Assembly: GCA_900696465.1 (NCBI GenBank)
Contig: CAADGE010000027.1
Location: 124,001 to 188,000 of the forward strand
Source: an uncultured Planctomycetota bacterium
GTDB taxonomy: Bacteria; Planctomycetota; Phycisphaerae; UBA1845; UTPLA1
Direction: 5' to 3'
DNA length: 64,000 bases
Numbering within the stretch: position 1 is the stretch's first letter; the number at the start of each line of letters is the position of its first letter. A program made the translations under genes and the position numbers. This document shows, one piece after another, positions 24,782 through 60,621 of the stretch. The notes beneath the pieces are model-generated. The model had not been told where the DNA came from and made no database searches. It saw only the letters and a program-made list of their open reading frames with translations.

Positions 24782-27700
24782 ATGGCCAAAGGCGAATCGA
24801 AATCGTATACCCCCGCCGAACACGAGCGGCGGATTTTCAAGCAGTGGGAAGACGGCGGCTACTTCCATCCCATGCCCGACGACCGCCCGCCCGAGAAGCG
24901 CTTCAGCATGGTCATCCCGCCGCCGAACGTCACCGGCGCGCTGCATCTGGGCCACGCCCTGAACAACACCCTGCAGGACATCCTCATCCGTCGCAAGCGA
25001 ATGGAAGGCCGCAACACTTTCTGGCTCGTCGGCACCGACCACGCCGGCATCGCCACGCAGGCGACCGTCGAAAAACACATCAAGAAGACCGAACATAAAA
25101 GCCGCCACGATCTTGGCGACACGCCCGAAGCCGCCCGTGAGGAGATGGTCCGCCGCATCTGGGCGTGGAAGGAGCAGTACGGCGGCCGCATCGTCGAGCA
25201 GCTTAAACTCATGGGCTGCTCCTGTGACTACCAGCGAGAGCGATTCACCCTCGACGAGGGCTGCGCGAAGGCCGTTCGCGAGACGTTCTTCAAGATGTTT
25301 CGCGATGGACTCATCTACCGCGGCAAGCGCCTGGTCAACTGGGACACGCAGCTCCAGACCGCCGTGGCCGACGACGAGGTCTACCACGAACAGGTCAAGG
25401 GACATTTCTATCATTTCAAGTACCCGGTGATCGATCCGCAGCCAGGCGAGCCGACGCACGTTCACATCGCCACCACGCGGCCGGAGACACTGCTGGGCGA
25501 TACGGCGGTGGCGATTCACCCGGAGCCCGACGCGGCGCTGGAAGTGGCCGAGACACAGTTGCAGGTCAAGCTCCGCGAGGCGACGGAGAAAGAGCGCCCG
25601 GCGATCCAGGCCCAGCTCGAAGACATCGCCGAGCGCAAGAACTCGCTCCTTCCGACGCTCCTGAAACTCCGCGATCTGGCCAGGGCGGGACGCAAGGTGA
25701 TGCTGCCGCTCGTGAACCGCAAGATTCCCCTGATCCTCGACGAATGGGCCGACCCGTCGCTGGGCACCGGCTGCGTGAAGATCACCCCTGCGCACGACTT
25801 CAACGACTACGAAGTCGGGCATCGGCACGAGCTGCCGATGGTGAACATGCTCACGCCCGACGGCCGCGTGAACGAAAACGGCGGACCATACAAGGGAATG
25901 AAACTCGCAGACGCGAGAAAGAAGGTCGTCGAGGATTTGGAGCAGCTCGGCCTGGTCGAAAAGATCGAGGACCGCCTGATCGACCTGGCCCACTCCGACC
26001 GCAGCAACACGCCGATCGAGCCGTATCTTTCCGATCAATGGTTCGTAAAAATGGGCGACCTGACGGAAGAGGAAGCCGCGCGCGTCCAGACGCCGTATCT
26101 CAAAGAATCCATCGCCCGCGCACGCGCTGCGTCGCAGCGCTCAGACGAGCCAGGGCCTTCAGGCCGTGCGGTTCCTGACTCACCAGCGACGCTCGAATCC
26201 AAGCAAAAGCTTCCCGGCCTGGCGCAGATCGCCATCGACGCAGTGAAGCGCGGCGACTTCCGCTTCCATCCCGCACGCTATGAAAAAACTTATCTCGACT
26301 GGCTCGGCGAAAAACGCGACTGGTGCATCAGCCGTCAGCTCTGGTGGGGACATCGAATTCCGGTGTGGAAGGCGACGTTTCGTAACATAGGCGGATCTGA
26401 ATTGCCTTCCGAGCAGCGAAAGCAGTTGCGCGGCTTGGTCGCGGAACTCGAAAACTCATTACAAGAACTAGGGCAGATTGCAGGGTGCCAAGGTGAGTTT
26501 TTCGCTTGGATAGATGAGGAAGCTTCACCAAGCTTCTGTTATGTGTGCTGTAAATCCGAGCATGCAAGTAATCAATTAGAAGCAATCGCATCCGGAATGA
26601 ATCGGGCTCGAATGGTTGCGCCTAACCAAGCCGATAGAGTCGTCGTCGATGCAATTGCCTTCGATGATCCTCGCACTAACGTCACGCGTAGGATACGAGA
26701 ACATGCTCGCGAGTTCGAGCAGGACCCCGACGTGCTCGACACGTGGTTTTCCTCCGCCCTGTGGCCGCATTCGACGCTGGGATGGCCGGGGGAGATGAGC
26801 AGCGTGTACAACCAAGCAGACGCCGATGATGGTAGAGGAGCCGCACGGCCTGAAGGCCGTGGCTTCTCAAGCAGGCGCCCCTCTGATGAGCCACGGCCTT
26901 CAGGACGTGCGGCTCCGACGAAACCAGCGGCGCCCCTCCTCGACTACTACTACCCCACAAACGTGCTTTCGACGGCCCGCGAGATCATCACGCTCTGGGT
27001 CGCCCGCATGGTCATCACCGGTCTCTACAACGTCGGCGAAGTTCCTTTCCGCGACGTGGTCATCCACCCGGTCATTCAGGACGGCCAGGGCCGCAAGATG
27101 AGCAAGACGCTGGGCAACGGCGTCGATCCCGTGGACATCATCGAGGAGTACGGCGCCGACGCCCTGCGCTACACGCTCGCCGAACTGGCCACCGAGACGC
27201 AGGACATCCGCCTGCCGGTCAAGCCAAAGAAACTTCCCGACGGCCGCACGATCAACGTCAGCGAAAAGTTTGAGAAGGGCCGCAACTTCTGCAACAAGCT
27301 CTGGCAGGCGTCAACGGGCTTTGTCATCCCGAACCTCGACGGCTACGCGCCGAAGCCGCTCGATCCCGCGACGCTCGGCCTGGTCGATCGCTGGATCCTC
27401 TCGCGGCTGACGGCCTGTATTGCACAGGTGAATGACGCGCTGGATCGCTACCGCTTCAGTGAGGCCGCCGGCGCGCTCTACCGCTTCATGTGGGATGAGT
27501 ATTGCAGCTGGTACATCGAGATGACCAAGCCACGCCTGACCGGCTCCGAACGCGCCGCCGCGCAACAGGTCCTCGTCCACGTCCTCGACCAATTGCTCCG
27601 ACTTCTGCACCCGGTCATCCCGTTTGTCACCGAGGCCGTCTGGGCGGAGCTGGCCCGAATCGCGCCGTCGCGCGGGCTGCGCGAATTAAAACCGGCCGAG

Positions 27701-28252
27701 CCGCTGCTCGTGGCCGCCGCGTGGCCGACTGCGGAATCCGCCCTGCGTGATGAGGCCGTCGAACGACAGATGGAAGAGCTGCAGGATGTCATCCGCAGCA
27801 GCCGCGACATTCGCACTGTGGTCAATGAACATCGCGGCCGCGCCAAGGCGGCGTCGCTGCGCATGCTGCCCCGCGTGGTCATTCGCGCCGACGGCGAAGC
27901 CCGTCGCCTGATCGACGGGTACAAGGATTTCATTCGCCCGCTCGCAGGTTGTGAGTTGCTCGAGGTCGGTCCCGATCTGGCGAAGCCGCCCGGAGCGATG
28001 AGCCGCGTCTGCGGGACGATGCAGATCTTTGCCCCCGTGGGCGACCTGGTCGATCTCGCCGAGATGCGGCGCAGCGATCAGGCCCGGCTCGACGATTTGC
28101 GTCAGGTGCTGGCCCGGGAGCAGGCCCGGCTTTCCAATGACGATTTCGTGCGACGGGCCGATCCCGGCATCGTGGAGCAGGCCAAAACGCGCGCCGCCGA
28201 GTTGTCAAGTCAGATTCAGATGCTCGAGTCCTCTCTGGCTGACCTCGCATGA
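24782..28252 (+). CDS. valS: Valyl-tRNA synthetase with repeat-derived insertions
   Basis: 1156 aa, longer than usual bacterial ValS (about 880-950). Class I signatures are intact: HLGH at residues 55-58 and KMSKTLGNG from residue 772. The editing domain contains TTRPETLLGDTAVAIHP and ITPAHDFNDYEVGHRHELPM. CISRQLWWGHRIPVW, DVLDTWFSSALWPHSTLGWP and the anticodon-binding domain are present, as is a C-terminal coiled-coil arm (from about 1080). Extra length comes partly from two palindromic repeat insertions (about residues 454-470 and 686-712), rich in Arg, Pro, Ser and Gly. A further contribution is a segment at about 535-640 with lower GC and odd codon use, containing CYVCC. The inserts keep the frame and fall between conserved blocks, so the enzyme is probably functional. 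Confidence 0.95.
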   Translation: MAKGESKSYTPAEHERRIFKQWEDGGYFHPMPDDRPPEKRFSMVIPPPNVTGALHLGHALNNTLQDILIRRKRMEGRNTFWLVGTDHAGIATQATVEKHIKKTEHKSRHDLGDTPEAAREEMVRRIWAWKEQYGGRIVEQLKLMGCSCDYQRERFTLDEGCAKAVRETFFKMFRDGLIYRGKRLVNWDTQLQTAVADDEVYHEQVKGHFYHFKYPVIDPQPGEPTHVHIATTRPETLLGDTAVAIHPEPDAALEVAETQLQVKLREATEKERPAIQAQLEDIAERKNSLLPTLLKLRDLARAGRKVMLPLVNRKIPLILDEWADPSLGTGCVKITPAHDFNDYEVGHRHELPMVNMLTPDGRVNENGGPYKGMKLADARKKVVEDLEQLGLVEKIEDRLIDLAHSDRSNTPIEPYLSDQWFVKMGDLTEEEAARVQTPYLKESIARARAASQRSDEPGPSGRAVPDSPATLESKQKLPGLAQIAIDAVKRGDFRFHPARYEKTYLDWLGEKRDWCISRQLWWGHRIPVWKATFRNIGGSELPSEQRKQLRGLVAELENSLQELGQIAGCQGEFFAWIDEEASPSFCYVCCKSEHASNQLEAIASGMNRARMVAPNQADRVVVDAIAFDDPRTNVTRRIREHAREFEQDPDVLDTWFSSALWPHSTLGWPGEMSSVYNQADADDGRGAARPEGRGFSSRRPSDEPRPSGRAAPTKPAAPLLDYYYPTNVLSTAREIITLWVARMVITGLYNVGEVPFRDVVIHPVIQDGQGRKMSKTLGNGVDPVDIIEEYGADALRYTLAELATETQDIRLPVKPKKLPDGRTINVSEKFEKGRNFCNKLWQASTGFVIPNLDGYAPKPLDPATLGLVDRWILSRLTACIAQVNDALDRYRFSEAAGALYRFMWDEYCSWYIEMTKPRLTGSERAAAQQVLVHVLDQLLRLLHPVIPFVTEAVWAELARIAPSRGLRELKPAEPLLVAAAWPTAESALRDEAVERQMEELQDVIRSSRDIRTVVNEHRGRAKAASLRMLPRVVIRADGEARRLIDGYKDFIRPLAGCELLEVGPDLAKPPGAMSRVCGTMQIFAPVGDLVDLAEMRRSDQARLDDLRQVLAREQARLSNDDFVRRADPGIVEQAKTRAAELSSQIQMLESSLADLA
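26141..26190 (+). repeat. Palindromic repeat element inserted in frame in valS (copy A)
   Basis: Contains GAGCCAGGGCCTTCAGGCCG and a following CACCAGCGACGC, matching the right half of copy B (26884 onward, including ACCAGCGGCGCC). It is translated as SDEPGPSGRAVPDSPA inside valS, between the editing and catalytic blocks. One mismatch breaks the core palindrome (CAGGGCCT instead of CACGGCCT). Confidence 0.75.
26837..26916 (+). repeat. Paired inverted copies of the palindromic repeat inside valS (copy B)
   Basis: Two 33-bp arms (26837-26869 and 26884-26916) are inverted relative to each other with 30 of 33 positions matching, around a 14-bp loop. Each arm carries the core CACGGCCTGAAGGCCGTG or its complement (one mismatch in the right arm). 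The pair could fold into a large mRNA hairpin, yet it is translated in frame (ARPEGRGF and SDEPRPSGRAAP). Confidence 0.85.
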
Positions 28253-37624: not shown

Positions 37625-40600
37625 ATGCTTAATCAATCAACAATTCTGACGGTCACACGAACGCCGCGGATTGCTCGGCGACAAGTCACAATTCGCCATG
37701 CTGCGATCTTTCTGATGGTGGCTGCGGCTTGTACCGGTCTCTGCGCGACGATGGCGAACGCCGGCGCGGTGAGCGTGACCGGCACGATGGAGGTCCGCTC
37801 CAACAGCGCCATCGACGGCGTGTTCAGCCCGACGACGCTCAACCCGGTCATCACGGAAACCGTCGGCGCGGGCGAGTGGCCGAGCAATTCGGAGATTCAC
37901 ATCGTCGCACCCGCGGGGTTCGTCTTCAACACGACGCTCCCGGTGACCGGCGAGGTGATCGTCGGCGATATCGATATCGGCGGCGGCGCCGGCATGCCCT
38001 TCGATGTGACGCCGGGTGCAACGTCGATCGTCTTCACGGTGAACAACGCCAGCACGGTCGCTTCGTCCATCCGCTTTCTGAACATTCAGCTTCGGGCGAC
38101 GAGTTGCGCGGCCGCCGTGCTGGGCAACGCCGCCGACATCCTGGTCAGTATTCTGAATCCGGTCGGCGCTCCGGCCAACGCGGTGCTGGTCGACGTCAGC
38201 GTGGGGAACAGCTCGGCGGACCTCGATCATTTCACCCTGACGGCTGATCCGCTGACCCAGCTCCCGGGCAGCAACATCCTCTTTACGCTCACGGCGCGCG
38301 ACACCTGCGCGAATCCGATCGCGTTTTTCCGCGCACAGGATTTCAACGCCGCGCACGCCCTTCCGCTCAACACACCGATCGACCTGCTCGCGGCGGGAGG
38401 TGCGGCCACACGAACCTTCAGCAACGGCTCCATCGCCGTAACTGCCGGCGGTGCGAACATGGCGACGATCGACGCCGCCGTGATGTTTGACGCCAATGGT
38501 CAGGGTACGTTCAACGCGACCAGCCCGACCGGCGAAGATCCGCCGATCAACATGGGTGCGACGCTCGCTGTCGCCTCGGGCAGCGTGAATGTTCGCTGGA
38601 TCAACGCATCCTGCGCGCTGGCACCGGTCGATGCGCTCCGCTCGCTCGGTGCGCTGCATGCCGTCATCGTCACGGTCACGCAGAACGCCGGCACTCCGCT
38701 GGCGGGCGTGGATGTCACCTTCAACATATCCGCCGGACCGAACGCCGGCACCATGGGCCTGGCGACGACGAACGGCGCCGGACAGGCCGCCTTCTTCTAC
38801 AACGGTGTCGGCGGACCCGGCGTGGACACGATCGACGCCAGCGGCGCGGTCGGCGCCGTTACGTTCATGTGCACAACGACCGCTGAATGGGTTGATCCAA
38901 GCTGCGTGATCACGCCGATGGCCGCCAGTCTGGTCGGCGGCATGCAGACGGTCAGCGTGGATGTTGATCGACGACCCGGCGTGGACGCGCCGAACGGCAC
39001 GACCGTCAACTTCGAGATCATCGCCGGACCGAATGCGGGCACCGTCGGCAACAGCGTCACCGCGGCCGGCACCGCGACGTTCATGTACATGAGCAACGGT
39101 CAACCCGGTGTGGACACGATCCGGGTCAGCGGCAACATCGCCGGCGCCGTGTTTGAATGCATCGCCACGAAGGAATGGATCGACCCGGTCTGTGCGCTCG
39201 ATCCGGCGACGGACGTCAACCAGGTGAACACGGCACACACCGTGACGATCACGCTGCTTCGACGTCCCGGCGTGCCTGCGGCGGGCAACAACGTGACCTT
39301 CGATGTCACGGCCGGACCGAACGCCGCCGCCGTCGCCCCGCAGGTGCTCGTGACCAATGCCCTCGGGCAGGTGGACTTCACCTACATGGGCGGTGCGACG
39401 CCGGGCGTGGACACGATCACCGCAGACGGCACCGTGGACGGCGTGCCCTTCATGTGCACGGCCTCGAAGGAGTTCATCAACTCGGGATGTATGCTTCAGC
39501 CGCTGGCGGATACCAATAACACCGGCACGATTCACACGGTCACGGCGACCGTTTTGCGGAACAATCCACCGAACACGCCGGCCGTGAACGTTGTCGTCAA
39601 CTTCACCGTCGCCGGCGTGAACAATGTCGCCGGCGCGGTGCTGACCGATGTCAACGGCGTCGCGGTCTTCAGCTATCAGGACACCGGCGGGCCGGGCGTC
39701 GACACCATCACGGCCAATGCGACCGTGGACGGCGTCAACACGACCTGCATGGCTACCAAGACCTGGATCAACGCACAGTGCAGTCTTACGCCGCCGAACG
39801 ATACCAACCCGGTCGGTTCGATGCACATGGTCACGGTCCACGTGACGCAGAACGGCGCGAATGCCGCGGGCGTGGTCGTGAACTTTGACGTGACCGCCGG
39901 ACCGAATGCCGGCGTGGTCATTCCCGCAGCCATCACCAATGGCGGCGGCCTGGCCTTCGCCAGCTACACGAGCAACGGCGTGGTCGGAACGGACACGATC
40001 ACCGCATCAGGGAATATCAGCGGCGCGCAGTTTACCTGTACGGCCACCAAGAGCTGGATCGTTGTGCCGACTTGCAACATCGCAGCGATGGCGCCCAGCG
40101 CGGTCGGCGGCATGCAGACCGTCAGCGCGACGGTGGAGCGCGCTCCCGGCGTGCCCGCGATCGACGGCACCGTGGTGAACTTTGCGGTCATCGCCGGACC
40201 GAACGCAGGAACGGGCGGCAATGCAATGACCACGGGCGGCGTGGCCAATTTCATGTACACCAGCAACGGTCTGCCCGGCGTGGATACCATCAACGCCAGT
40301 GCGACCATCGACGGCATCAACACCAGTTGCTTCGGCATCAAGGAATGGATCAACCCGGTCTGCTCGCTGGATCCGATCATGGATGTCAATCGCGTGAATA
40401 CGGCGCACACCGTCACGCTCACGCTCTATCGCCGTCCGGGCGTGCCGGCTGTCGGTGCCAACGTCACGGTGGATGTCACAGCAGGGCCGAACGCGGCCGC
40501 GGTCGCTCCGCAGCTATTGGTGACCAACGCGCTGGGCCAGGCGGACTTCACCTACCTCGGCGGTGCGACGCCTGGCGTGGATACGATCACCGCATCCGGC

Positions 40601-42142
40601 AATGTTGATGGTGTCGCGTTCCTCTGCACGGCGACGAAGGAGTTCATCAACTCGGGCTGCATGATCCAGCCGATGATGGATACCAATCAGGTCGGCGGAC
40701 AGCACAGCGTCACGGTGACCGTGCTGCGGTCCACGCCGCCAGACCAGCCCGCGCAAAACGTCATCGTCAACTTCGCGGTGGCCGGCGTGAACAACGTCGT
40801 CGGCGCGGTTGTGACGGACATCAACGGACAGGCGACTTTCCAGTACACCAGCAACGGTACGCCGGGCACCGACACAATCACCGCCAGTTCGACGGTGGAC
40901 GGCGTGCTCATCACCTGCAACGCCACGAAGGACTGGATCAACGCGGCATGTACGCTTGATCCGCCGGCCGATAGCAACCTGACCGGCACGAATCACACCG
41001 CTACCGTCACGGTGACTCGAAACGGCGTTCCGCAATCCGGTGTGACGGTATCCTTCCTCGTGACTGCCGGTCCGAACGTCGGCGCAGTTGATTTTGCCGT
41101 GACCAACGGCGCGGGGCAGGCGACGTTTACTTACATGAGCAATGGTACGCCGGGCACCGACACGATCACCGCGTCGGGCAATATCTCGGGTGTGCCATTC
41201 GAGTGCACGGCGACCAAGACCTGGCTGAATCCGCAATGTTCGCTCGCGCCGCCGACCGAGGACAACATTGTCGGCACGCAGCATACGGTGACCGTCACCG
41301 TGACGCGCGACGGGGCGGCGGCGGCCGGAGTTGCCGTGGTCTTCAACATCACCGCCGGGCCGAACACCGGGTTGCTCTTTAACGCGGTGACCAACGGTGC
41401 CGGGCAGGCGGCCTTCACCTACACGGGGGCGGCCGGTGCGGGCACGGATACGATCCAGGCATCCGGCGTGATCGACGGCATTCCCTTCAACTGCACGGCC
41501 ACCAAGACCTGGCAGGCCTCCGACGGCAGCGGCGTCGATCCTGACGTGCAGGACGGCGCGCCGAACAACGGCGACGGCAACAACGACGGCATTCCGGACA
41601 AGCTCCAGCCGAACGTTGTTTCGCTGCCCGATATCTTCGGGAATTACGTCACGATCGTTTCGCCGGCGGGAACGATGCTCAAGAACGTCATGGCGCTTAA
41701 TACGCCCAACGGCGGCATTCCTCCGCCGGATGTCGTGTTCCCCATCGGCTGGTTGAAGTTTGAAGTTCACGGCGTCGCGCCGGGTGCGTCGATCGTCGTC
41801 GACATTATCATGCACTCGAACCCGACCGTGAACACCTATTACAAGTTCGGTCCAACGCCGATCATCCCGGTTGATCTCTTCTACCGGTTCCTCTTTGACG
41901 GCACGACCGGCTCCGAGGTGCTGGGCAACGTCATGCGGCTGACCCTTGTGGACGGAATGCGCGGCGACAGCGACATCACGGCCAACGGGATCATCGTCGA
42001 ACCGGGTGCTCCGGCTCTCGAAGCTGAGAATCCGGCGCCGGTGGCAAACCCGAGCTGCGGCCTGTGCGCCCCGGGCGCGGCGGCGATGATGCCCATGATG
42101 ATGCTCGGCTGGTATGCCCTGCGTCGCACGCGCCGAAGATAA
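37625..42142 (+). CDS. Secreted ten-repeat Ig-like (Big-1/invasin-like) protein with Cys-containing C-terminal sorting tail
   Basis: 1505 aa; AAGGGG lies nine bases before the ATG. The signal region is RHAAIFLMVAAACTGLCA. An N-terminal domain of about 300 aa precedes ten tandem units of about 97 aa. Each opens W[IVL]N..C.L.P..D and contains HTVTVTV, NFDVTAGPNAG, NGAGQA.FTY, PGTDTI.ASGN and ends F.CTATK.W. The two Cys per unit probably form a disulfide. Units 2-5 are near-copies of units 6-9, so a 1.17-kb block was duplicated. A calcium-type spacer (NNGDGNNDGIPDKLQP) and a beta domain follow. The tail CGLCAPGAAAMMPMMMLG, then WYALRRTRRR, has the helix-plus-basic layout of PEP-CTERM signals but with a CGxC motif instead. 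It is probably a large adhesin or stalk-like surface protein. Confidence 0.88.
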   Translation: MLNQSTILTVTRTPRIARRQVTIRHAAIFLMVAAACTGLCATMANAGAVSVTGTMEVRSNSAIDGVFSPTTLNPVITETVGAGEWPSNSEIHIVAPAGFVFNTTLPVTGEVIVGDIDIGGGAGMPFDVTPGATSIVFTVNNASTVASSIRFLNIQLRATSCAAAVLGNAADILVSILNPVGAPANAVLVDVSVGNSSADLDHFTLTADPLTQLPGSNILFTLTARDTCANPIAFFRAQDFNAAHALPLNTPIDLLAAGGAATRTFSNGSIAVTAGGANMATIDAAVMFDANGQGTFNATSPTGEDPPINMGATLAVASGSVNVRWINASCALAPVDALRSLGALHAVIVTVTQNAGTPLAGVDVTFNISAGPNAGTMGLATTNGAGQAAFFYNGVGGPGVDTIDASGAVGAVTFMCTTTAEWVDPSCVITPMAASLVGGMQTVSVDVDRRPGVDAPNGTTVNFEIIAGPNAGTVGNSVTAAGTATFMYMSNGQPGVDTIRVSGNIAGAVFECIATKEWIDPVCALDPATDVNQVNTAHTVTITLLRRPGVPAAGNNVTFDVTAGPNAAAVAPQVLVTNALGQVDFTYMGGATPGVDTITADGTVDGVPFMCTASKEFINSGCMLQPLADTNNTGTIHTVTATVLRNNPPNTPAVNVVVNFTVAGVNNVAGAVLTDVNGVAVFSYQDTGGPGVDTITANATVDGVNTTCMATKTWINAQCSLTPPNDTNPVGSMHMVTVHVTQNGANAAGVVVNFDVTAGPNAGVVIPAAITNGGGLAFASYTSNGVVGTDTITASGNISGAQFTCTATKSWIVVPTCNIAAMAPSAVGGMQTVSATVERAPGVPAIDGTVVNFAVIAGPNAGTGGNAMTTGGVANFMYTSNGLPGVDTINASATIDGINTSCFGIKEWINPVCSLDPIMDVNRVNTAHTVTLTLYRRPGVPAVGANVTVDVTAGPNAAAVAPQLLVTNALGQADFTYLGGATPGVDTITASGNVDGVAFLCTATKEFINSGCMIQPMMDTNQVGGQHSVTVTVLRSTPPDQPAQNVIVNFAVAGVNNVVGAVVTDINGQATFQYTSNGTPGTDTITASSTVDGVLITCNATKDWINAACTLDPPADSNLTGTNHTATVTVTRNGVPQSGVTVSFLVTAGPNVGAVDFAVTNGAGQATFTYMSNGTPGTDTITASGNISGVPFECTATKTWLNPQCSLAPPTEDNIVGTQHTVTVTVTRDGAAAAGVAVVFNITAGPNTGLLFNAVTNGAGQAAFTYTGAAGAGTDTIQASGVIDGIPFNCTATKTWQASDGSGVDPDVQDGAPNNGDGNNDGIPDKLQPNVVSLPDIFGNYVTIVSPAGTMLKNVMALNTPNGGIPPPDVVFPIGWLKFEVHGVAPGASIVVDIIMHSNPTVNTYYKFGPTPIIPVDLFYRFLFDGTTGSEVLGNVMRLTLVDGMRGDSDITANGIIVEPGAPALEAENPAPVANPSCGLCAPGAAAMMPMMMLGWYALRRTRRR
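38607..41519 (+). repeat. Ten tandem ~290-bp coding repeats with a four-unit block duplication
   Basis: The unit boundaries are marked by TGG-ATC-like codons before each first Cys. The Trp codon of unit 3 is at 39176 and that of unit 7 at 40346, an offset of 1170 bp. Units 4 and 8 share the variant opening EFINSGCM. Units 3 and 7 share PNAAAVAPQ. High DNA identity implies a recent duplication or gene conversion. Confidence 0.85.
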
Positions 42143-60588: not shown

Positions 60589-60621
60589 CACGGCCTGAAG
60601 GCCGTGGCGCTTCGCGCGAAG
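60589..60621. repeat. Palindromic repeat element (copy C) between convergent recO and prkA
   Basis: CACGGCCT-GA-AGGCCGTG (60589-60606) is a perfect 8-bp stem with a two-base loop, the same core as in valS. It is followed by the perfect 12-bp palindrome CTTCGCGCGAAG (60610-60621). Placement between convergent genes suits a bidirectional transcript end. Confidence 0.8.

Follow-up and report, generated by a model that had tools for sequence, protein, structure and literature searches.

In-frame REP-like palindromes in a planctomycete valS gene and their likely relation to Y1 transposases nested in purH and other essential genes

The valS gene of the window (the whole stretch of 64,000 nucleotides that was analysed, from an uncultured Planctomycetota bacterium, apparently of the Phycisphaerae) carries three copies of a palindromic repeat in its reading frame. 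These repeats are probably REP-type palindromes of a Y1/HUH (RAYT-like) transposase family, and the units in valS would be insertions of this kind or their remnants. They would be small non-autonomous mobile units. This reading is based on dispersed copies, copies that flank a transposase, open host frames, empty sites in relatives, conserved catalytic residues and, in the two most closely related genomes, a nested transposase under purifying selection. The features of the window are as follows.

24782..28252, + strand: valS, valine--tRNA ligase, 1156 aa (ORF list, Pfam, NCBIfam), host of three in-frame palindromes
26057..26215, + strand: ValS site 1 segment, 53 aa, from the loop comparison with relatives; missing from 1GAX
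26141..26178, - strand: single REP-like unit, core 26151-26168 with 1 mismatch, translated DEPGPSGRA
26786..26947, + strand: ValS site 2 segment, 54 aa, from the loop comparison, carrying the inverted pair; missing from 1GAX
26834..26871, + strand: REP-like unit, left half of the inverted pair, core 26844-26861 exact, translated GAARPEGRG
26837..26916, + strand: hairpin of the inverted pair, 33-nt arms, in the coding strand
26882..26919, - strand: REP-like unit, right half of the inverted pair, core 26892-26909 with 1 mismatch, translated DEPRPSGRAA
60579..60616, + strand: fourth copy, core 60589-60606 exact (C27:184589), apparently intergenic

The palindrome core is CACGGCCTGAAGGCCGTG, which occurs exactly in the left half of the pair and in the fourth copy, the latter being an addition to the first-pass annotation. 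With up to 3 mismatches allowed, 8 matches were found on the two strands of the window, compared with 0.16 expected. None of 100 shuffles reached 8, so chance is excluded for the window repeats. No frame of at least 100 aa extends well beyond both sides of the fourth copy. The valS product is a complete valine--tRNA ligase by NCBIfam match, and all three valS copies lie in its frame, the inverted pair being read GAARPEGRG..DEPRPSGRAA. The core search and the ORF frames thus confirmed the first-pass annotation, which had described one single and one inverted-pair copy in frame in valS. Its claim that the insert peptides lie between conserved enzyme blocks was borne out by alignment with T. thermophilus ValRS (1GAX), in which the blocks stop and restart around both inserts and query residues 431-479 and 674-720 remain unaligned. 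The 33-bp mRNA hairpin that it proposed for the pair agrees with the prediction: the 33-nt arms are 91% complementary, and the predicted RNA fold of -67.8 kcal/mol (z -9.3) was equalled by none of 200 shuffles. At site 1, only the latter part of the segment is repeat. The first ~25 of its 53 residues (DLTEEEAARVQTPYLK...) are common to G002, G003, G005 and G015, and the palindrome comes only after them, so part of the site 1 insert is not repeat-derived. Between the two inserts, window 26350-26799 has 50-54% GC compared with 60-67% elsewhere in valS, and G017 has a stretch of similar length and different sequence at this place. Window 38700-41500 contains tandem protein-like repeats of ~290 bp each.

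The genome of the window is a 4.14-Mb draft assembly, and copies were sought in it with a covariance model of the 38-nt unit, an imperfect palindrome with an 11 bp stem as modelled. Twelve copies scored 50-60 bits, followed by four weak matches at or below 32.5 bits (150 of 6612 first-look candidates were scored). Eight of the twelve lie in frame inside genes, namely valS (3), ileS (2), purH (2) and preA (1), as named by NCBIfam. All eight are in one codon phase and translated RPSGR or RPEGR (one GPSGR); this agreement is given without a p-value because paired copies are not independent. The core itself is stop-free in five of six phases. The earlier idea of a repeat family was upheld by the genome-wide count. 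A pair of copies on C46 lies upstream of a dxr match, and those at C27:184589 and C33:99989 are not clearly within any gene. Inverted pairs of the unit are seen in valS, on the two sides of the purH transposase and ahead of dxr.

The purH copies connect the palindrome with a transposase. PF01797 has three matches in the genome, and one of them, C29:66468-66686, lies between two inverted repeat copies. Here a single open frame of 855 aa encodes the PurH N-part, a palindrome, the transposase, a palindrome and the PurH C-part. Pfam found the MGS and AICARFT parts with Y1_Tnp between them, and NCBIfam identified the nested protein as PurH, in separate stretches. The remaining two matches of the PurH query in the genome cover the transposase part only. 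The right-hand palindrome (L006 1507-1684) shows an in-frame tandem expansion of 9.9 copies of an 18-nt unit. The linker at this insertion point is 11 aa long in G007, G020, G002 and G010, and 231-309 aa in ten nested genes (31 loci were parsed, and seven without a purH frame were dropped). The transposase has the HUH motif as DHVH and a catalytic Tyr, and scores above the PF01797 cut-off. A model of the transposase domain of L151, a related nested purH, reached pLDDT 91.4 with 35 alignment rows and matches ISDra2 and IS608 (IS200/IS605) and the RAYT 4ER8. An AlphaFold model of the whole nested PurH of L151 (4-row alignment, mean pLDDT 35.6) was discarded. The cognate transposase of the genome's palindromes is likely the one nested in purH. 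Another Y1 transposase, at L016 1170-1945 (G000:C36), is flanked on each side by a palindrome of its own, GCGAAGAGGCAAGCG, which also occurs once within the gene; no copy of this palindrome within 2 mismatches was found in the window.

An alignment of ValS covered 20 relatives, and the lengths of the two loops were taken from 26. Site 1 is 15-18 aa long in 14 relatives, 42-302 aa in 8 and 0 in one (G019), compared with 53 aa in the window; it was unparsed in G031, G023 and G093, the last of which was read separately. Site 2 is 9-16 aa long in 15 relatives and 25-359 aa in 10, compared with 54 aa in the window, and was unparsed in one of the 26 (G003). G001, of the same genus, has a bare site 1. 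The notion that the valS segments are insertions thus stood up to alignment, as 14 relatives are without the site 1 insert and 15 without the site 2 insert. The longer loops hold other inserts, often other palindromes. The palindrome CGCGGGC(TGAA or TTCA)GCCCGCG is present in G003, G012, G014, G017, G027 and G058, and the exact 18-nt core was not found in 60 relatives. The stems of the window's palindrome and of that in G003 and G014 differ, and the loop and flanks are alike. G003 has 51 exact copies of its sister palindrome. The 30 examined include the purH pair, one copy in a molybdopterin-domain match, one between PurL domains and one pair after a truncated PLP-enzyme match. Beyond these, many are placed at the ends of genes or away from any recognised domain, which indicates that the sister palindromes are by no means all intragenic. 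In G003 itself, a single-contig genome, ValS matches fall in two frames of 1248 and 605 aa (L050), which may reflect a frameshift, a sequencing error or a genuine split. In G006 (L056), site 1 holds a low-complexity insert of 176 aa in which SAASGSP recurs, together with AT-richer imperfect palindromes.

Whole transposases also occupy such loops. A transposase in ileS of G004 sits at the loop that matches the second ileS palindrome of the window's genome, and ValS of some relatives carries whole transposases at one or the other of the two sites. In total, 33 transposases were found nested in frame in purH, alaS, valS, ileS, leuS, gcvP and two methylase-like genes.

purH, type A: the window's own genome, G003, G014, G030, L151, L152, L153
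purH, type B: G009, G019, G029
valS: G017, G058, G093 (site 1, type A), G019 (site 2, type C), G298 (near site 1)
leuS: G017
ileS: G004, G012, G016
gcvP: G004
alaS: G001, G008, G009, G024, G027, G029 (two), G090, G073, G100, G049
methylase-like gene, unnamed by NCBIfam: G055
BREX-2 pglX, a phage-defence methylase: G391 (L287)

L154 is G030 and L155/L156 are G017, both genomes belonging to the Phycisphaerae; L151-L153 are probably G062, G088 and G086, having equal frame lengths. NCBIfam was run on six nested hosts and named ileS, gcvP, alaS, valS and leuS. The alaS contig of G024 stops just past the transposase, with one host side unseen. The alaS of G029 (L107) holds two different transposases in one frame of 1686 aa. 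All 33 retain the catalytic Tyr, and 32 retain the two HUH histidines (27 of the 33 were compared in program output and six by eye). In L152 one of these histidines is replaced by Arg, which suggests that activity is not kept everywhere. Three candidates were set apart: G011:C45 has a frame long enough (881 aa) to suggest nesting, yet this frame is GC-rich and spurious, G010:C5 is a stand-alone transposase, and G049:C75 (616 aa), with only 47 residues ahead of the transposase, was left uncounted.

Searches with profiles showed how far nesting extends. At 1e-15, the type-A profile gave 70 matches, spread over 44 of the order's 101 genomes, and 24 of these matches are nested. Its 12 best matches are all nested, six being the profile's own rows, and the same is true of the 12 best of the type-C profile, six being seed rows. 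At 1e-20, 23 of 51 matches were nested in the order, compared with 2 of 38 in 293 genomes from the rest of the phylum, where scoring was limited to 12 candidates in each. A Fisher test of 24/70 against 2/38 was set aside because it mixed two E-value limits. A GTDB scan gave 155 stretches that encode relatives. Eighty were kept, and the six with the highest scores are nested. Among the remaining 74, of which only 60 have 360 bases of DNA on both sides, none has 120 open residues to either side of the transposase at once. Of the 107 PF01797 matches in family f1, 12 are in frames longer than 500 aa, one of the 12 being spurious.

A 34-row tree, built when nine of the 12 nested type-A rows had been identified, placed all nine in one supported clade apart from free relatives. 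The seven purH transposases as one clade were not rejected (p-AU 0.29), and the type-A purH hosts as a clade were rejected (p-AU 5.4e-5). The purH hosts need at least 8 state changes, a count that does not distinguish gains from losses. Between G003 and G014, the closest pair, dN/dS is 0.143 for the transposase (dS 0.67), 0.111 for the PurH C-part (dS 0.65) and 0.30 for the N-part (dS 0.95); it is 1.63 for linker 2 (44 codons) and 0.31 for linker 1 (32 codons). Other pairs are near saturation. The values of the transposase are near those of the PurH C-part, which indicates that it has been carried since about the split of the two genomes, under selection. Of the 17 genomes of family f1, 5 have matches to the palindrome model, including all 4 with a type-A transposase of at least 140 bits. 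This co-occurrence (4/5 compared with 0/12, Fisher p 0.0021) is small and post hoc, with the bit limit set after the scores were seen. G002 has 14 palindrome-model matches and no strong type-A transposase.

Single-strand HUH chemistry is established for REPs and RAYTs elsewhere, and transposases are normally kept out of essential genes. By analogy, we believe that REPs, and sometimes whole REP-RAYT-REP units, would insert by this chemistry, and that an insertion into an indispensable enzyme would survive only where it keeps the frame and falls in a surface loop. The stop-free ends, giving a peptide rich in Arg, Pro, Ser, Gly and Glu, would act as linkers, with the enzyme and the transposase domain folding side by side. 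A fixed element would be expressed together with the host gene, and would be hard to lose because only exact in-frame deletions would be tolerated. The single and paired units of the window valS may be such insertions, or leftovers of a lost larger unit. Since no intein domain and no known intron RNA were found in the nested cases searched, the insert apparently stays in the protein, and the enzyme appears to be made with the nested palindromes and transposases included. A further step, for which we see the balance as even, is that these are 'non-splicing inteins': REP-RAYT-REP units adapted to in-frame life at recurrent surface loops of indispensable enzymes (PurH, the Ala-, Val-, Ile- and Leu-tRNA synthetases and GcvP), with some RAYT lineages that are habitually intragenic. 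The palindromic ends would double as linkers, and a catalytically intact transposase would be a domain of the host enzyme. Those lineages would seed solo REPs from there into the same loops in other genes and genomes.

Other explanations were weighed against the REP-type reading. The inserts might be native linkers, proper to the enzymes of this lineage, in which the palindromes arise from selection on peptide or mRNA structure. The ~25 site 1 residues beside the palindrome, common to five genomes, would fit this, as would the very stable predicted hairpin of the pair and the similar peptide EPRPSGSG at site 1 of G005 and G015, which comes from different DNA with the same GAGCC...TCAGG skeleton. 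However, the same DNA occurs in unrelated genes and between genes, 14 relatives do without the site 1 insert and 15 without the site 2 insert, and linker 2 of purH is unconstrained, so we consider native linkers improbable. Removal of the insert from RNA or protein, intein-like or IStron-like, would mean that the host enzyme never carries it, and inteins and introns do indeed bring a DNA enzyme into essential genes at sites that recur. Yet no Hint or other splicing domain was found in eight nested proteins (Pfam, E up to 0.01), no catalytic intron RNA (IStron, group I/II) matched Rfam at gathering score in six nested loci or the window, and the frame is open throughout, which would be needless if the RNA were spliced; we regard this as very improbable. 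Least probable of all is an assembly artefact or a set of pseudogenes. Most genomes are draft, repeats are prone to misassembly, and the G011 frame was one spurious nested-looking case, but nested purH occurs in G003 and G014, each one contig of ~4 Mb, nested pglX lies in a 7.7-Mb contig, and many separate assemblies show frames that stay open across the two junctions, at loops that recur.

Exaptation is unlikely too, though it carries more weight than these. Nested transposases would then be kept since the fused domain helps the enzyme or the cell, for example by nucleic-acid binding. Three things point this way: in the closest pair, the transposase is under purifying selection like that on the host; the catalytic residues are intact in all but one of the 33; and some lineages look habitually intragenic. 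Against it, the distribution is patchy and the type-A purH genes are not a clade, three transposase types are spread across several host genes, and sister species are without them. Selection for harmless folding or for transposition would look similar.

The first-pass annotation had likened the repeats to Rickettsia palindromic elements (RPEs), and this comparison holds in part. RPEs are described as units of ~150 bp with a conserved peptide ORF (PMC10969869), inserted in frame in indispensable genes and translated as peptide inserts (PMC10969869, PMC3733652). Here, too, dispersed palindromes lie in frame in essential and unrelated genes (8/12 copies in valS, ileS, purH and preA) and their DNA is absent at those sites in the relatives compared. 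The likeness fails in size and company: the unit is 30-40 nt (~38 nt as modelled), flanks and co-occurs with a RAYT-like Y1 transposase as REPs do, and no transposase is named for RPEs in the available passages of PMC10969869 and PMC3733652. A 2013 survey counted RPE-4 and RPE-6 of R. conorii among REPs (PMC3733652), so the two kinds may be distantly comparable.

The closer match is with REPs, BIMEs and REPINs and their RAYT (TnpA_REP) transposases, in which palindromes are likewise single or inverted-paired, dispersed, and flank a Y1/HUH transposase (PMC3733652, PMC6006769, PMC8049555). REP elements are 20-40 nt long, multi-copy and often in inverted pairs; the 38-nt unit fits, though 12 copies are few for a REP family. 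They flank a RAYT gene, whose product recognises and cuts them as single strands; the copies at C29:66193 and 66826 likewise flank Y1_Tnp. REPs have a conserved tag, GTAG or CGTC, at one end. Here GTAG is absent; CnTC is present at one end, as CGTC in 5 of 12 copies, and may correspond to that tag. REPs inside ORFs, including those of tRNA synthetases, and REPtrons composed of REPs and a RAYT have been described (PMC3733652), in-frame REPs are known within RAYT genes (PMC6006769), and RAYT inheritance has been treated (PMC8049555). What differs here is that most clear copies (8/12) are intragenic and that a whole transposase is nested in purH and in essential genes of relatives. Class 3 TnpA_Y1, described with a Y----Q motif, W[TA] and a 5' foot CnGA, is similar in its planctomycete and acidobacterial distribution, NHVH-type HUH, W[TA] and flanking secondary structures, and in the Tyr followed by Gln of nested types A and C (PMC6006769). 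The transposase of the window's genome has W-W-T and YVCAQ, with Gln at Tyr+4 rather than at +5 as in the pattern, and the CnGA foot precedes only 3 of 12 copies. The available part of that description makes no mention of nesting, and unexpectedly long proteins were thrown out in this survey of the Y1 transposase family (PMC6006769).

In the open-access literature (titles and abstract openings of the papers listed), no report of whole RAYTs nested in essential genes was found. REPs in ORFs are already published, and the whole units that the sequences suggest in essential genes appear to be without found precedent. For annotation, this is a warning that nested cases resemble fusions or annotation errors. 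If true, such persistence in essential genes without splicing would explain the repetitive Arg/Pro/Gly linkers in planctomycete housekeeping proteins, and the low-copy persistence of RAYTs would become testable. Inteins with homing endonucleases also place a DNA enzyme in frame at recurrent sites of essential proteins, with a patchy distribution. They differ in having a splicing domain, which was not found in the eight nested proteins searched, and here the insert apparently stays in the protein. A lineage that persists in essential genes without splicing would, if true, be a second route, beside inteins, to selfish DNA that is hard to remove.
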